Shown in pieces: positions 27,819 through 33,684 of a stretch of 49,415 nt of DNA. The stretch is from Planctomycetia bacterium (GTDB lineage Bacteria; Planctomycetota; Planctomycetia; Gemmatales; Gemmataceae), in assembly GCA_005772955.1 (NCBI GenBank), contig SXID01000010.1, positions 1 to 49,415 of the forward strand, read 5' to 3'. Both the position numbers and the translations under genes were made by a program. Below the pieces are notes generated by a model, which was not told the origin of the DNA, did no database searches, and was given only the letters and a program-made list of their open reading frames with translations. Each line of letters opens with the position of its first letter. Position 1 is the first letter of the stretch.

Positions 27819-27973
27819 GCAGAGGACAGAGGACAGTCAGGGACCAAGCTGAGCGTTCGCCCCGCTGGGGTCGAACTGCTTTGAACAAGCAACATTCGCC
27901 CCTGCGGGTCGAACGCGAAACGACCTTCATGTGGTCTCTGTTCTGTTCTTTGTTCTCTGTCTTCTGTCCTCTC
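27819..27973. repeat. Nested inverted repeats between convergent genes
   Basis: Outer arms GCAGAGGACAGAGGACAG (27819) and TCTGTCTTCTGTCCTCT (to 27973) enclose an inner family A copy (GAGCGTTCGCCCC at 27851; GGGTCGAACGCGAAAC at 27906-27921). The element starts 2 bp after one stop codon and reaches into the stop of the convergent kinase gene. Confidence 0.85.
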
Positions 27974-30098
27974 ACTTTCCATCAACCAGTTTCAGGATCG
28001 CGTCGGCGAATGCGGTCGCGTCGGGCGGGCCGCTCGCGGTCACGATCTTGCCGTCCACCACCACGCCCGGTTGCTTGTCCCACGTGATGCCGCTCTTCTC
28101 GCCCCCGAGGAACGGGTGCTTCTTGAAAAAATGCTCGCTCGGCGCAGCCTTCTTGCCCCTCAATACGTCGTGCGCGACCAGAACGCCCTGGCCCACACAG
28201 ATCGCGGCCACCGGCTTGCCGGCGGTTTGCATCCGTTGAATCACCTTCGCGGTCGCGAACGACCCGCGGCCCATAAACATGTACTCGCTGACGTTTTCAC
28301 CACAGAACACCACCGCGGCATAGTCCGACAGATCCATGTCTGCCCTGAACCACACGTCGATGGGCACGTCTGGACCGGAACGCCCACCGGGCAACCTTGA
28401 CGAAGCCCGGTCGCCTTCAAAAGCCGCGGTCACGACCTTCGCCCCCTTCACCAGGAAGTGGTCGCGCACCGGCGCGAAGTCGTCCCACCAGACACCGTTG
28501 CTCGGTACCACGTACAGAATCTGCACACCCTTCGACGGTGGCGCAATGACGGTCGGCGCGACCGGTCCACCCTTGTCGCCCTTGTTCCCCTTCTCGCCTT
28601 TGTCGCTCTTGTCGGTCTTCCCCTGCGCTGGATTGTTCTGCGGGTTCGCCTTCGCGATGTTCGGTGGGTTGGTTGACTTCTTTCCGCGAGTTGCGAGGAC
28701 GCCCGCGACAAACAGGAACAGCGCCGCGAGCACGCCGCCGATCACGGCTCCCTTCCGCCGCTTCCACCACGATGCTTTCCTGGATTTCCTCACTCGCCTG
28801 GGCCGCGGTGCCTCCACGAGCGTCGGCCCGCCCGGAACCGGTTCGGTGTCGCCGCGAGCGCCCGACAGCGTCGCGGGAGTGTGAACGGGCGAAGCGAGCC
28901 GCGGAGCTGGCGTGGTGATCACCGCGTCCACGATCTCGAAGACCGGCTCTTTCGCGGAATCGGATCGCGTGAACGGGTGTAGCGCGCTCGCGACCTCCGC
29001 CGCAGTCTGGTAGCGGTCCTCGGGCTTCTTCGCCATCATCTTCGCGAGCACATCGGCCAGACCCGCGGGCACCTCCGCTCGCGCATCGCAAACCGCGGGC
29101 GGTTCGTCGTTCGTGTGCGCGAGCAGTTTGTCGATCAGCGTGGATGCACCAAAGAACGGTGCCTTGCCGGTGAGCAGGAAGTACAGCGTGCAGCCGAGCG
29201 AATAGATATCGCTGCGGTGGTCCACGTCGTGCGAGTTCTTGGCCTGTTCCGGCGAGAGGTAATCCGGCGTGCCCATCAGCACGTTCGGGTTCGTCACGCA
29301 CGTCTGGGCCGACGCTCTCCCCGCGCCGAACGGTAACTTCGTGGTCGGGAAGGTGTCCGCATCGTCTTCGTCCGTGCGCGCGAACCGGGCGAGGCCGAAG
29401 TCGAGGATCTTGACCTGACCCTTGCGGGTCACCATCAGGTTCTGCGGCTTGATGTCGCGGTGAACCATGCCCTTGTCGGCCGCGTGCTGAAGCCCGAGCG
29501 CCGCGTGCCGGGTGAACGCGCTGGCCATCGGCACCGGGAGCGGTCCCTTTTTCGTGACGAGCCGGTCAAGGCTCACGCCCTCGATGAACTCCATCACGAG
29601 AAAGTGTGAGCCGCCGGCCTCACCGGTGTCGTGCGCGGTGATCACGCCGGGGTGGTTCAGTTGAGCCGCGGCTCGGATCTCCTTGCGGAACCGCTCGACG
29701 GCGCTGGCCTTCGCGGTCAGGTGCGGCGATACGACCTTGATTGCGATCACGCGACCCATGAGCAGGTCTTCGGCCTTGTACACGATGCCCATGCCGCCAG
29801 CGCCGATCTCGCTGAGGATGCGGTAGCGTGGATGGTCGGCGAACCCTGCCGGCACGCGGTCCGAAGGCGCGACGCCCGCGACCAGCAAAGGTTTCGCGAG
29901 CGCCATCACGGTAACCGGCGAAGCGGCAGCGACGCGGGCCAGGCCCGCGAGCGAGTCTTCCGGCACGAACTTCAGCGCGTCGCCGCACGCAGCGCACCCG
30001 CCGATGTGTTCCGCCACCCCCGCGAGTTCGGTCGAGGACAAATCGCCGCGAGCGAACGCGGCCAGGGTTTCCGCACTGGGACAAACGGCAACGGGCAT
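27972..30098 (-). CDS. Membrane Ser/Thr kinase fused to a DJ-1/PfpI domain
   Basis: A 708-residue protein. The N-terminus has a zf-HC2-like Cys set (CPSAETLAAFARGDLS, HIGGCAACG; residues 6-38). The kinase domain is at about 92-375, with glycine loop GAGGMG (99-104), Lys121, HRD with Asp215, DFG 233-235, and an APE-equivalent SPEQ, so all catalytic residues are present. A basic stretch leads to one membrane span (451-470), then a Lys/Asp/Gly-rich linker, then a DJ-1/PfpI-type domain (about 524-708) with Cys634 in AAICVGQGVL at the nucleophile elbow. The usual following His is Val. The last domain would sit outside the cytoplasm and may be a sensor or enzyme feeding the kinase. GGAGG precedes ATG 30098. 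Confidence 0.88.
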   Translation of the reverse strand: MPVAVCPSAETLAAFARGDLSSTELAGVAEHIGGCAACGDALKFVPEDSLAGLARVAAASPVTVMALAKPLLVAGVAPSDRVPAGFADHPRYRILSEIGAGGMGIVYKAEDLLMGRVIAIKVVSPHLTAKASAVERFRKEIRAAAQLNHPGVITAHDTGEAGGSHFLVMEFIEGVSLDRLVTKKGPLPVPMASAFTRHAALGLQHAADKGMVHRDIKPQNLMVTRKGQVKILDFGLARFARTDEDDADTFPTTKLPFGAGRASAQTCVTNPNVLMGTPDYLSPEQAKNSHDVDHRSDIYSLGCTLYFLLTGKAPFFGASTLIDKLLAHTNDEPPAVCDARAEVPAGLADVLAKMMAKKPEDRYQTAAEVASALHPFTRSDSAKEPVFEIVDAVITTPAPRLASPVHTPATLSGARGDTEPVPGGPTLVEAPRPRRVRKSRKASWWKRRKGAVIGGVLAALFLFVAGVLATRGKKSTNPPNIAKANPQNNPAQGKTDKSDKGEKGNKGDKGGPVAPTVIAPPSKGVQILYVVPSNGVWWDDFAPVRDHFLVKGAKVVTAAFEGDRASSRLPGGRSGPDVPIDVWFRADMDLSDYAAVVFCGENVSEYMFMGRGSFATAKVIQRMQTAGKPVAAICVGQGVLVAHDVLRGKKAAPSEHFFKKHPFLGGEKSGITWDKQPGVVVDGKIVTASGPPDATAFADAILKLVDGK

Positions 30099-30273
30099 CG
30101 AACTCAGCCTCCGCGGGGCGACCTGATTTTCACAACGGAAAGATGGCACAAAAACGGTTGGGTCTGTCAGCGTTTTGATTTGAATGTCGCAGACGGGACT
30201 CGCTCTTTCGCGTCTCGCGCGAATGTTCTGCCACCTGCTTTCCGACTCGGGGTGTAAGCCCCAGACGTTCGGA

Positions 30274-31236
30274 TCACACCTTCTTCAGGAATGATGTGCC
30301 GGTGTCCACGTGTTGGAGCGTTGCGGAGCAGCACAGGCCGACCAGCATGGGGTTGTCGGCCGGGGCGTGGAACTCGCAGATGCCGAAGAACTGGTCCTGT
30401 AAGAATCGCAGGATTTGGGAGATCAGGAGTTTCGCGAGTCCCGCGCGGCGCAGATCCTGACGTACCTGTACGTCGAGAATCCCGGCCGACGGGAACCCCC
30501 AGCGCCAGCCGTAGCCCTCCAGTTCCCACACGATCGCACGGGCCGCGATGAAGTTGCTCGCGAGCTTGTCTACCACGCGAAACTCGACCGGGTCCAGCGT
30601 GCCCCACACGCACTCGTGCCACCAACTCGGCACGCCCGCGGCTCGCATCACCTGCGTCTCGTACCGCTTCCGCAACATGCTGAACCGTGCGTCCGGGATC
30701 GAGAGCGGCGCGTCGAGCTTCTTCTGAAAAACGAGGGTCTGCGCGCCCGGTTCGTAGCCCAGTGAGCGGAAGAACGGGTCCGCGGCGGGGTCCGACTCGA
30801 GGAACCCCGGACAGTTCGTACCGCCATACAGACCGAACCCGAAAGGGCAGTACGGCCACACGGGGCCAGCTCGCAGCGTGGTCGCGCCTCGCCGGATCAG
30901 ATACTCCTCGCACTTTTTCACGAGGTCCGCGCCGAGGTGCTTCCGCCCGGTACTCGGGCGCACCGCGACCGAACAGATGACGCCGTGCGTGTGGTCGAGT
31001 GCAGTAAAGGTTTCGTTCGGTCCGAACCCGGCCAGCGCGTAGCCAACGATGCGGTTGTCCTCATCGTCGTACGCGACGATGAGGCCGTCGTGGTCGAAGT
31101 ACGGTTTGGAGAACACCCAGCGTTCGAGCAGCGCGGGCGTGCGCAGCGGGAAACTCCCGCGGGCCGTGTGCGACTCGTTCCACACGTCGGCGAGCGCAGG
31201 CGGGTCGGTGTTACGGAAGCGACGGAAGGCGATCAC
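30274..31236 (-). CDS. Tandem GNAT acetyltransferase
   Basis: A 320-residue protein with two GNAT folds. The first (about 1-130) has VICSVAVRPSTGRKHLGADLV, which matches the acetyl-CoA loop (RxxGxG-like). The second (about 215-320) has VQVRQDLRRAGLAKLLISQIL. Such double domains resemble mycothiol synthase-like or regulatory GNAT proteins, but the substrate is unknown. GTG 31236 is the likely start because the protein then begins IAFRRFRNTDP, a typical GNAT first strand. The upstream frame is low-complexity. The SD is weak. Confidence 0.8.
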   Translation of the reverse strand: MIAFRRFRNTDPPALADVWNESHTARGSFPLRTPALLERWVFSKPYFDHDGLIVAYDDEDNRIVGYALAGFGPNETFTALDHTHGVICSVAVRPSTGRKHLGADLVKKCEEYLIRRGATTLRAGPVWPYCPFGFGLYGGTNCPGFLESDPAADPFFRSLGYEPGAQTLVFQKKLDAPLSIPDARFSMLRKRYETQVMRAAGVPSWWHECVWGTLDPVEFRVVDKLASNFIAARAIVWELEGYGWRWGFPSAGILDVQVRQDLRRAGLAKLLISQILRFLQDQFFGICEFHAPADNPMLVGLCCSATLQHVDTGTSFLKKV

Positions 31237-31697
31237 GGCCGGCTCTCGCGGTCCGCCGGGGTGAGGAACGGCGGCAGTGGACAGATTAGGCAATACTACA
31301 GGGGGAACGTCGCACTCGCAAGATTGGCCAAATACCCGGTAGGTTCTTGAACAGCGGAAGCAAACATCGCGTTGCGAACGCGAGCCATCAGTTGGCTCGC
31401 GTTCGCGGACACTTCGCGAGAACTTCGTTTCTTGCGTTCTTCGTTCGCTCGTTGGGCGCGTTTCGCTACCCTTTCGCACCATCTCCGCAGTGTGGCGCGA
31501 CTAGCGCCCGGATTGCCAACCGGATGTGTTCGGGGACGTGCGGCCACGATTGAAGAAGGGCATTCGGGATGCCGTCCAGGTCCAATCTGCTCGCATCCGA
31601 ACCGTTCTTTTGAGGTTCGTTCCGGTGGCTTCTGTTCCCTCTTGACCGGATTCGTCATCGCTTTGGTTTTGCGGCGATTCGCTTGAAATCCCCGGAG
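31237..31697. other. Long intergenic region with an orphan hairpin
   Basis: About 460 bp between the GNAT start and the 3' end of the tRNA. It contains the 14-bp perfect hairpin at 31374-31406 and a pyrimidine-rich patch (31625-31680). Short frames here lack a start signal and protein-like composition, so no gene is called. Confidence 0.4.
31374..31406. repeat. Perfect 14-bp hairpin
   Basis: GCGAACGCGAGCCA (31374-31387) and TGGCTCGCGTTCGC (31393-31406), loop TCAGT. There is no T-run. It lies far from gene ends. It could be a small RNA structure or a minimal repeat. Confidence 0.6.
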
Positions 31698-31827: not shown

Positions 31828-33531
31828 TCACTTCGGGGCGGGCGCGTCGAGCGGCTTCAGGTATTGCTCCAACCCCTTGTAGGTGTCGAGCGGGTAGTCT
31901 TCTTGCTTGTTGCCGGCGCTGTGGCACGTCGCGCAGCGGTTGTCGATCAGCGACTTGATCCGCACCTTGCCGTCCTTCACGAAGTCCGACGTGATCGTCT
32001 TGTCGCTCAGGCCGGGTAGGTCGAACTTGTCGGCCGCGTAAGTGGACTTGCGCACGGCCTCCGGCGAACGCACCCACGCGAGCAGCGTGTCAAGGTCGCC
32101 TTGCCGGTGCGCCTTCAATTGGTCTTTCTCCGCTTGGGGCTTATCACTTTCCAGGAACTTCTTGTAGTTCTTGTCTTTTTCGAAGAACGCGGGGATCATG
32201 CTACCGTCGCGGCTGAACGGGAAGGTCTTCACGTCTTCGGGCAAGGGGATTGGTTTCCCGTCGTCATCGACTGGTGGCCAGATGAGCAAGCGGTCGAGTT
32301 CGTTCATCGGCTTCCGCAGTACCACCGGGGCGCCTTGCACCTTCGTCATCGCGTCGGTGATCGCGCCGCCCGCCGCCGCGACGCCGTCGGCCATGGATTT
32401 GCCATTCCCGTTCCGGTTGCCGTTCACCGGGGGCTTGGGATCATCTGGCTTCTGCTCGACGTTCGGTTTCGGCAACGCGGGGATCAGCAGTTTCACCACG
32501 AACCCGCCGCCCGCGAGCGCGCCGAGCAGGAACAACACCGCGATCACCACCTTGCCCTTCGGGCCGTACATGTTGAACAGGCTGAGTGTGATCTGCGCGC
32601 CCAGGCACGAACCCGCGACCGCACCGGTGGCCATGACGCCCATCGAGAAGTACGGCCCCCACTGGTCGCACAGCCTCGCCAGCCACCACAGCGATACGTC
32701 CGCGAACACCGCGATTACCACCGACGGCCCGAGGATCACGCGCATCCACGTCGGCCAACTGCTGAACGCGAAGATCACGCCCGTGAGCGAGAACAGCATT
32801 GCGAAACTGAGCAAGTGCGCGTGCGTTGATTGCGTCAATTTGCTGATGCTGATTGGCTCTTCGACCTTCACCCATGTGGCACCCGCAGGCGCTGCTTCCG
32901 GGGCTGTCATGAACCGCGACAGGAATTCGTAGTTGTCCAGTGGGATGTCTTCCTTGTCGCCGCCCTTCGAGTGGCACGTGACGCAGCGGGCGTCGATGAG
33001 TGTCTTGATCTTCACCGCGTTGCCGTCGGCGAGGAGCGGCGTGAACGCTTTCGGCATGGTTCCCGCGGACGGCGTGAATTTGTCCGCATCGTAAGTGGCT
33101 TTGCGCTCCGCGTCCGGTGTGTTGATCCACAGCGCGAACACGGTCTGTTCGCCTTTGCGTTCGGCCTTCACCTGTGCGACCACTTCGGCGAGTTGCCCGC
33201 GAACCGCGGGGCCGAACTTCAGCGGTCCCTTCGAGCGGTCCTCCGTGGTGAACGCGGCTGTCATCGAACTGCCGGAGATGGGTGCTGTTTCACCCGTGAT
33301 GAGTGCTTCCAGGCGCGACATCGGGCGCGGCGGTGGCGCGTTCGGGTCCGCTTTCTTCTTGCCGGTGAACTTCAGGATCACGTCGTCGGGCGTCGGCATC
33401 GGCTTGCCGGACTTCGCGTCCTGCATGTGCAGTTGCAGCAGCGCCGAGGTGTACCCGGCGCCGACCGCGAGCAGGAACACCGTGGCCACCACCTTCACCG
33501 GCAGCGGCAGATCGCGAAGGGTGTACGACAT
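31828..33531 (-). CDS. Membrane c-type haem protein with internal duplication
   Basis: A 567-residue protein. One membrane span lies near the N-terminus (about 12-32). A periplasmic domain follows with CVTCH at 183-187, then four or five membrane spans (about 238-350), a Pro/Asn-rich linker, and a second periplasmic domain with CATCH at 533-537. The two haem-binding segments are alike: TYDADKF/TYAADKF, KIKTLIDARC/RIKSLIDNRC, EDIPLDNYEFL/EDYPLDTYKGL. It is thus a duplicated domain around a membrane core. The block THAHLLSFAMLFSLTGVIF resembles membrane haem or quinol segments. It is likely an electron carrier or redox sensor with no named family. ATG 33531 is set by the first membrane span. 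Confidence 0.82.
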   Translation of the reverse strand: MSYTLRDLPLPVKVVATVFLLAVGAGYTSALLQLHMQDAKSGKPMPTPDDVILKFTGKKKADPNAPPPRPMSRLEALITGETAPISGSSMTAAFTTEDRSKGPLKFGPAVRGQLAEVVAQVKAERKGEQTVFALWINTPDAERKATYDADKFTPSAGTMPKAFTPLLADGNAVKIKTLIDARCVTCHSKGGDKEDIPLDNYEFLSRFMTAPEAAPAGATWVKVEEPISISKLTQSTHAHLLSFAMLFSLTGVIFAFSSWPTWMRVILGPSVVIAVFADVSLWWLARLCDQWGPYFSMGVMATGAVAGSCLGAQITLSLFNMYGPKGKVVIAVLFLLGALAGGGFVVKLLIPALPKPNVEQKPDDPKPPVNGNRNGNGKSMADGVAAAGGAITDAMTKVQGAPVVLRKPMNELDRLLIWPPVDDDGKPIPLPEDVKTFPFSRDGSMIPAFFEKDKNYKKFLESDKPQAEKDQLKAHRQGDLDTLLAWVRSPEAVRKSTYAADKFDLPGLSDKTITSDFVKDGKVRIKSLIDNRCATCHSAGNKQEDYPLDTYKGLEQYLKPLDAPAPK

Positions 33532-33559
33532 TGGGATACATCCAAAACAGAAGCAGTTC

Positions 33560-33684
33560 ACCACAAAGGCACGAAGGACACAAAGAAGACCGAAGGCAGA
33601 GAACTGAGTCGGAAGACAGTGCATTTCGTGCTGGCTTGAAAGCTCTGTCCTCGGTCTTCTTTGTGTCCTTCGTGCCTTTGTGGT
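33560..33684. repeat. Inverted repeat, CCACAAAGGCACGAAGG type
   Basis: Perfect 34-bp arms at 33560-33593 and 33651-33684, spacer 57 bp. Elements with the CACAAAGGCACGAAGG core recur between genes in planctomycetes. It lies between NrnA-like gene 3' end and haem protein 5' end. Confidence 0.92.

Follow-up and report, generated by a model that had tools for sequence, protein, structure and literature searches.

A DJ-1/PfpI-fold domain on a planctomycete membrane kinase with an anti-sigma-type zinc domain: a candidate outside-to-sigma receptor

Among the closest described counterparts of the locus reported here are the ECF sigma factor groups ECF43, 59, 61, 62, 217 and 283, whose genes, according to excerpts of a 2022 review (PMC8999054), lie beside a Ser/Thr kinase (STPK) gene and several of which have planctomycete representatives. 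In the same excerpts, ECF43 sigma factors are described as being devoid of the charge in region 2.2 and as being switched on by phosphorylation there, with the charge being retained in one ECF43 member according to a passage of PMC13147305. Outside ECF43, according to those parts of the 2022 review (PMC8999054), the STPK-linked groups have retained the acidic motif and may act by a different mechanism that was still uncharacterised. A separate route recounted there is the phosphorylation by PknB of separate zinc anti-sigma factors, which releases their sigma factor. Hanks-type kinases bearing a C-terminal accessory domain were described for the Gemmata group in passages of a study of planctomycete multidomain Ser/Thr kinases (PMC11032199), the partners named there being WD40 and TPR, and its main text makes no mention of DJ-1, PfpI, ThiJ or zinc. 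Kinase-linked planctomycete ECF sigma factors and kinases with varied C-termini are both already known.

The DJ-1 fold is best known from Parkinson's disease. Among the open-licence papers none was found to join DJ-1/PfpI with Pkinase, and no title among the matches listed describes such a fusion. Likewise, a DJ-1 sensor on a kinase of this kind, the loss of its Cys and an anti-sigma domain on the kinase itself were not found in the partial texts of the open-licence literature, and no claim of priority is made.

Domain order, topology and distribution of the kinase

The window, namely the whole 49,415-nucleotide stretch that was analysed (Planctomycetia bacterium, Gemmataceae; assembly GCA_005772955.1, contig SXID01000010.1), carries a kinase gene whose features are collected in Table 1. 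The initiating ATG occupies positions 30096-30098 and the stop codon 27972-27974; the mechanically called open reading frame begins 17 codons before the ATG with a GTG at 30149 (725 residues), and the ATG at 30098 was taken as the start because it is common to most orthologues in the alignment.

Table 1. Positions of the kinase gene, its parts and neighbouring genes in the window
Feature	Position	Strand	Basis or remark
Whole gene, 708 aa	27972..30098	minus	Order: anti-sigma-like zinc domain, Ser/Thr kinase, transmembrane helix, DJ-1/PfpI domain
Class I anti-sigma-like zinc motif, N-terminal, residues 6-38 (C6 ... H31-x3-C35-x2-C38)	29985..30083	minus	zf-HC2
Hanks-type Ser/Thr kinase domain	29004..29825	minus	IAIK, HRDIKPQN, DFG; Pkinase 156.1 bits
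Transmembrane helix, residues 451-469	28692..28748	minus	Lys/Arg: 8 among the 15 preceding residues, 4 among the 15 that follow
DJ-1/PfpI-fold domain, predicted extracytoplasmic	27975..28535	minus	Pfam and structure model
Elbow Cys634 codon, not conserved across the family	28197..28199	minus	Alignment and tree
Asp540 codon, at or near the DJ-1 Glu18 position (placement disputed)	28479..28481	minus	Acid in 37/37 family domains
Acetyltransferase-like protein	30277-31482	minus	Acetyltransf_1 and weak FR47; occupies the place of the sigma gene in many relatives
Protein with two CxxCH haem motifs	31831-33624	minus	Weak cytochrome c matches

By sequence and prediction, the 708-residue protein follows the domain order given in Table 1. 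A first-pass annotation, made from the sequence alone, had described an active-looking kinase, a membrane span and an extracytoplasmic DJ-1/PfpI domain, and all three descriptions are supported, the outer location as a prediction. The kinase domain (Pkinase, E 1.5e-45) has the Hanks-type catalytic Lys, in IAIK, and the HRDxKxxN and DFG motifs, and the DJ-1_PfpI model matched with 61.7 bits (E 1e-16, cut-off 26.6). The protein falls outside the PASTA kinases (PknB/Stk1), scoring 311.8 bits with NF033483, whose cut-off is 450, and having no PASTA among its Pfam matches. One hydrophobic span lies between the kinase and DJ-1 domains of the window protein, and a span in this place was present in 36/36 kinases of the family, with a peak 19-residue hydropathy of 1.72 to 2.89, and in 33 of these the 15 residues before the span hold more Lys/Arg than the 15 after it (two ties, one reversed). 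The span and this bias place the DJ-1 domain, on prediction, outside the cytoplasmic membrane.

With the DJ-1 domain as the query, a long kinase frame ending in this domain was found in all 19 genomes of the genus and in 27 of the 95 genomes of the family, eight of them outside the genus; one of the 27 fusions (L055) is truncated within the kinase by a contig end. When the class was sampled in the same way (397 genomes, matches at E 1e-24 or better), 37 genomes gave a match, 35 of which are kinase fusions, eight outside the family. The other two are a protein of G104 that has several DJ-1 repeats and is not a kinase, and a match cut by a contig end (G217), and a second fusion in G026 brings the kinases analysed to 36. 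Limitation of the architecture to one class was considered and ruled out by L221 (G474): this kinase, from a different class of the phylum, likewise has a hydrophobic span and a DJ-1 end. Its N-terminus differs, and inspection by eye showed no zinc motif there. The kinase-span-DJ-1 architecture is a conserved planctomycete family. A scan of genome contigs with the single sequence returned no relatives of the DJ-1 kinase; querying them with an alignment returned eight loci, one of them a free-standing myxobacterial DJ-1-like gene.

A number of long non-kinase planctomycete proteins (L096 of G104, L106-L109 and L111) also bear one or more DJ-1 domains, are apparently exported and in some cases contain repeats. 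They are a possible source of the sensor of the kinase.

The DJ-1/PfpI fold, its conserved acid and its dispensable cysteine

The fold was predicted with AF2 from the C-terminal 187 residues together with eight sequences, of which seven were from orthologues and the eighth was a myxobacterial DJ-1-like protein, giving a mean pLDDT of 93.2 and a pTM of 0.91. The best PDB match by Foldseek was 8r3n, the PfpI of Pseudomonas (E 3.8e-14), and VIA-align Z scores were 24.7 for 4hcj, 24.1 for 8r3n, 22.9 for Arabidopsis DJ-1d (4ofw) and 22.8 for human DJ-1. The DJ-1/PfpI fold that the annotation had proposed, with a different fold after residue 520 named as the outcome that would overturn it, is accordingly the one that the model returned. 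The domain shares with the DJ-1/PfpI superfamily (PF01965) the fold, the best rows having a Z of 22 to 25, and the elbow position of Cys634, and differs from it in having Asp and not Glu at or near the Glu18 position, in having no His after the Cys, in being attached to a membrane kinase and, taken across the family, in the dispensability of the Cys itself. In the model, strand 109-112 (domain numbering) is directly followed by a helix that opens with Cys113, which is Cys634; the residue number that the annotation gave is right for the 708-residue protein (651 in the 725-residue frame), and the residue does sit at the strand-helix elbow.

The same annotation had asked whether an acid partner accompanies this elbow, a point which is only partly settled, Asp540 being the candidate. 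As residue 19 of the domain, Asp540 opens the helix 17-29, which is the helix that carries Glu18 in DJ-1, and its alignment column holds Asp or Glu in 37/37 family domains, a conservation with no real control since most control sequences are unaligned there. In two PfpI-like controls (L128 and L133), the profile column of Asp540 is occupied by their Glu. An ungapped hand count along the helix against DJ-1 and PH1704 sequences would put it at Glu18 itself, whereas in the gapped HMMER alignment to Arabidopsis DJ-1d its counterpart is an Asp that precedes the Glu by two residues. We treat Asp540 as a conserved acid and putative acid partner at or near the DJ-1 Glu18 position, its exact placement being disputed.

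DJ-1-family proteins are dimers or higher oligomers, and the domain could conceivably serve as a dimer module only, setting the pairing of the kinases free of any ligand. According to a passage of PMC13147305, the parts of bacterial Ser/Thr kinases that lie outside typically serve to bind ligands and to favour dimerisation of the kinase. An acid near the pocket in every family domain would be unexpected for a pure dimer module, however, and we regard this explanation as decidedly unlikely.

The elbow was aligned in 37 family domains (the 36 kinases and the contig-end-cut domain of G217) and in 29 control loci, comprising 20 hand-picked short-frame DJ-1 genes and nine other non-kinase matches from the same searches; these control loci gave 34 stretches, of which four fragments without the elbow were dropped. 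Cys occupies the elbow in 26/37 family domains and 25/36 kinases, against all 30 control elbows, albeit a narrow sample in that 19 of the 30 come from one CHGPW subfamily (Fisher p 0.0006 for kinases against controls, the rows being related). The 11 Cys-less kinases have Gly (seven), Ala (two), Ser (one) or Asp (one) instead. His follows the elbow residue directly in 0/37 family domains and in 27/30 control elbows.

These counts bear on the suggestion that the DJ-1 domain is mainly a tethered outer enzyme, be it a deglycase, glyoxalase or hydrolase, whose substrate is reported by the kinase. The DJ-1 fold and the elbow are what such an enzyme would have; the absence of the His throughout the family, the absence of the nucleophile from 11/36 kinases and a score of 61.2 bits with the PfpI model TIGR01382, well under its cut-off of 139.05, all weigh against it, and it is the explanation to which we give the least credence. 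By the last of these measures, and by the replacement of CH with CV at the elbow, the protein also lies outside the PfpI/YhbO deglycase-protease subfamily.

The history of the elbow residue was followed on a maximum-likelihood tree made without the elbow columns. The presence or absence of the Cys changes at least 10 times on this tree, five of these changes being forced by well-supported (starred) branches, and its clustering is no greater than with shuffled labels. The sister of the pair formed by the window and L033, L037, has Gly at the elbow, with a moderate, unstarred branch support of 87/63, and the same-genus kinases without the Cys further include L041, L042, L047 and L110. Within the window's own clade, 12 of 15 rows keep the Cys.

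The role that the annotation had assigned to Cys634, that of a sensor of oxidants or electrophiles outside the membrane which drives the kinase, was weighed against these data. It is in keeping with a Cys at the elbow, an acid close to, if not at, the Glu18 position, the retention of the Cys in most of the window's clade and the existence in the PDB of a DJ-1 E18D variant with an oxidised C106 (3f71). Nevertheless, with 11/36 kinases devoid of the Cys, members of the same genus among them, with every control elbow possessing it and with the repeated changes on the tree, the proposal fails as a mechanism of the family, and we consider it unlikely overall. Sensing by Cys634 confined to the window's lineage is kept as a minority reading on account of those 12 rows. 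Another candidate, a disulfide joining Cys634 to Cys599 (residue 78 of the domain), was rejected: both residues occur in 12/36 kinases, Cys78 alone in four, the elbow Cys alone in 13 and neither in seven.

Substitution rates complicate the picture. For the DJ-1 domain, five of six Cys-Cys pairs gave dN/dS of 0.06 to 0.22, i.e. purifying selection, and the sixth (L038/L045) gave 0.86; in this pair the kinases are 91% identical and the DJ-1 ends only about 44%, which looks like a DJ-1 sensor replaced or fast-evolving between near relatives. Six pairs each including a Cys-less row gave higher values, 0.37 to 0.79. Where the elbow Cys is gone, there may be relaxed constraint and not re-use, and this counts against a receptor reading. 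As a whole, the DJ-1 domain has the look of a ligand sensor for which the chemistry of the Cys is optional.

The zinc domain and its linkage to an ECF sigma factor

Residues 6-38 have the pattern C-x24-H-x3-C-x2-C, the latter part of which is shared with the class I anti-sigma factors ChrR, RslA and RsiW (Hx3Cx2C); the differences are that a kinase domain comes after the motif here and that sigma binding is putative. The zf-HC2 score was 19.4 in the whole protein, just below the cut-off of 22.2, and 23.2 with the domain alone, with which 8/8 aligned close relatives also matched. Hx3Cx2C with an upstream Cys or His was found in 31/35 testable DJ-1 kinases (a pattern search gave 30, and L050 was recognised by eye), being missing in L052, L057, L058 and L110, with L055 outside the count; 16 of the 31 have Cys as the first ligand and 15 have His. 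The window's genome has 65 Pkinase matches, some split; of the 26 kinases examined there, two carry the motif, the window kinase and a kinase on contig C22, and these are also the two that the zinc-domain profile recovered at E below 0.01.

Searching PDB sequences with the zinc domain gave no significant match, the anti-sigma factor 8rlz (E 0.077) appearing among unrelated proteins. The structure model of this domain is weak, with a pLDDT of 61 and three blocks near 80. Foldseek returned 15 matches to it, none of them significant (E 3.0 to 7.8) and all of them ECF anti-sigma factors: nearly all are RslA, ChrR or RsiW, the other being the SigK partner.

At 20/35 loci with upstream sequence, tblastn showed an ECF sigma gene immediately upstream of the kinase and in the same orientation; one of the 20 belongs to a different family within the order, and four belong to other families within the class. 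The linked sigma factor scores 40.6 bits with Sigma70_r2 and 59.5 bits with TIGR02937. Zinc-bearing DJ-1 kinases have the adjacent sigma gene in 20/31 cases, against 0/4 of those lacking the motif (Fisher p 0.026, the rows being related). The resemblance of the N-terminal Cys cluster to anti-sigma zinc domains, which the annotation had pointed out, is borne out by the motif counts and the zf-HC2 score, while the further idea of a second switch, taken as a redox switch, gives way to another: given a first ligand that may be Cys or His, and given the sigma gene upstream at 20/35 loci, the cluster is better read as a putative sigma-binding anti-sigma domain.

The window itself is among the 15 loci without the adjacent sigma gene, its upstream neighbour being the acetyltransferase-like gene of Table 1. 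Its genome does hold the sigma gene elsewhere, at C190:14136-14720 (L178), with 89% identity to the sigma factor of Gemmata sp. IIL30, no kinase behind it and a next gene that is apparently on the opposite strand. Orthologues at 73% identity or more occur in 18/19 genus genomes (G014 is without one), and three further genomes have the sigma factor at 56 to 67%, all within the 27 with a DJ-1 kinase; the orthologue line of about 55% was drawn post hoc, the best sigma factor in a genome without a DJ-1 kinase being 54% identical (G050). In G013, G015, G018, G022, G087 and G034, too, the stretch examined has a sigma orthologue and no kinase.

The generality of the linkage was assessed at 34 listed sigma places outside the DJ-1 kinase loci and C190, together with C22 of the window's genome (n=35). 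A kinase on the same strand lies downstream at 15 of these, 13 within about 100 bases or overlapping and two at 1.6 to 1.7 kb; the remaining 20 have no kinase in the stretch examined, in some cases owing to a contig end. The zinc motif is present in all 15 of these kinases, against 2 of the 26 examined in the window's genome, and matches to the DJ-1 profile number 0/15; the C22 kinase of the window's genome adjoins its sigma gene. The kinases with the zinc motif and no DJ-1 domain are L185-L187, L191-L194, L196, L198-L200, L203, L210, L211 and L179, and their C-termini are probably other sensors or none.

In region 2.2, the acidic motif DxxD is kept in 21/21 sigma sequences inspected, which sets the family apart from ECF43, a group marked by the loss of this motif. 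From the STPK-linked ECF groups in general, as described in the excerpts of PMC8999054, the system differs by description in that the kinase bears its own anti-sigma-type zinc domain.

A candidate route from the outer domain to the sigma factor

We consider it somewhat probable that the protein is an outside-to-sigma receptor in which a DJ-1 sensor, a kinase and an anti-sigma domain are united in one chain. It would be a single-span receptor kinase whose outer DJ-1/PfpI-fold domain serves as the sensor, most likely through a pocket, close to the conserved acid and the elbow glycine, that takes up a small molecule or peptide, with the old nucleophile Cys retained in some lineages, the window's included, and dispensable in others. 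On the inner side, the Hanks kinase is joined to the N-terminal class I anti-sigma-type zinc domain, and the cognate output would be the ECF sigma factor that has the acidic motif in region 2.2; many relatives encode it immediately upstream of the kinase, and in the window's genome its gene is presumably the unlinked one on C190. Occupancy of the sensor may alter the pairing or the activity of the kinase, after which the sigma factor may be released or engaged through phosphorylation, either of itself or of the zinc domain; ligand binding, sigma binding, the direction of control and the phosphorylation target are the steps that we infer. Since the sigma factor keeps DxxD, unlike ECF43, an anti-sigma clamp under the attached kinase is the more economical idea.

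More tentatively, and with doubt outweighing confidence, we suggest that one polypeptide performs all the steps from the outside to the gene: the DJ-1 domain would be a pseudo-enzyme receptor, the kinase would free the sigma factor by phosphorylating its own clamp, and the DJ-1 domain would be exchangeable among several sensors on a planctomycete anti-sigma-kinase chassis.

If such self-phosphorylation of the clamp is true, it would answer how STPK-linked ECF sigma factors that have kept the acidic motif are controlled, a kinase with its own anti-sigma domain providing a concrete route for the uncharacterised STPK-linked ECF groups. The DJ-1 fold, as a receptor module with a losable Cys, would in turn constitute a natural experiment on the function of its pocket once the nucleophile is gone.
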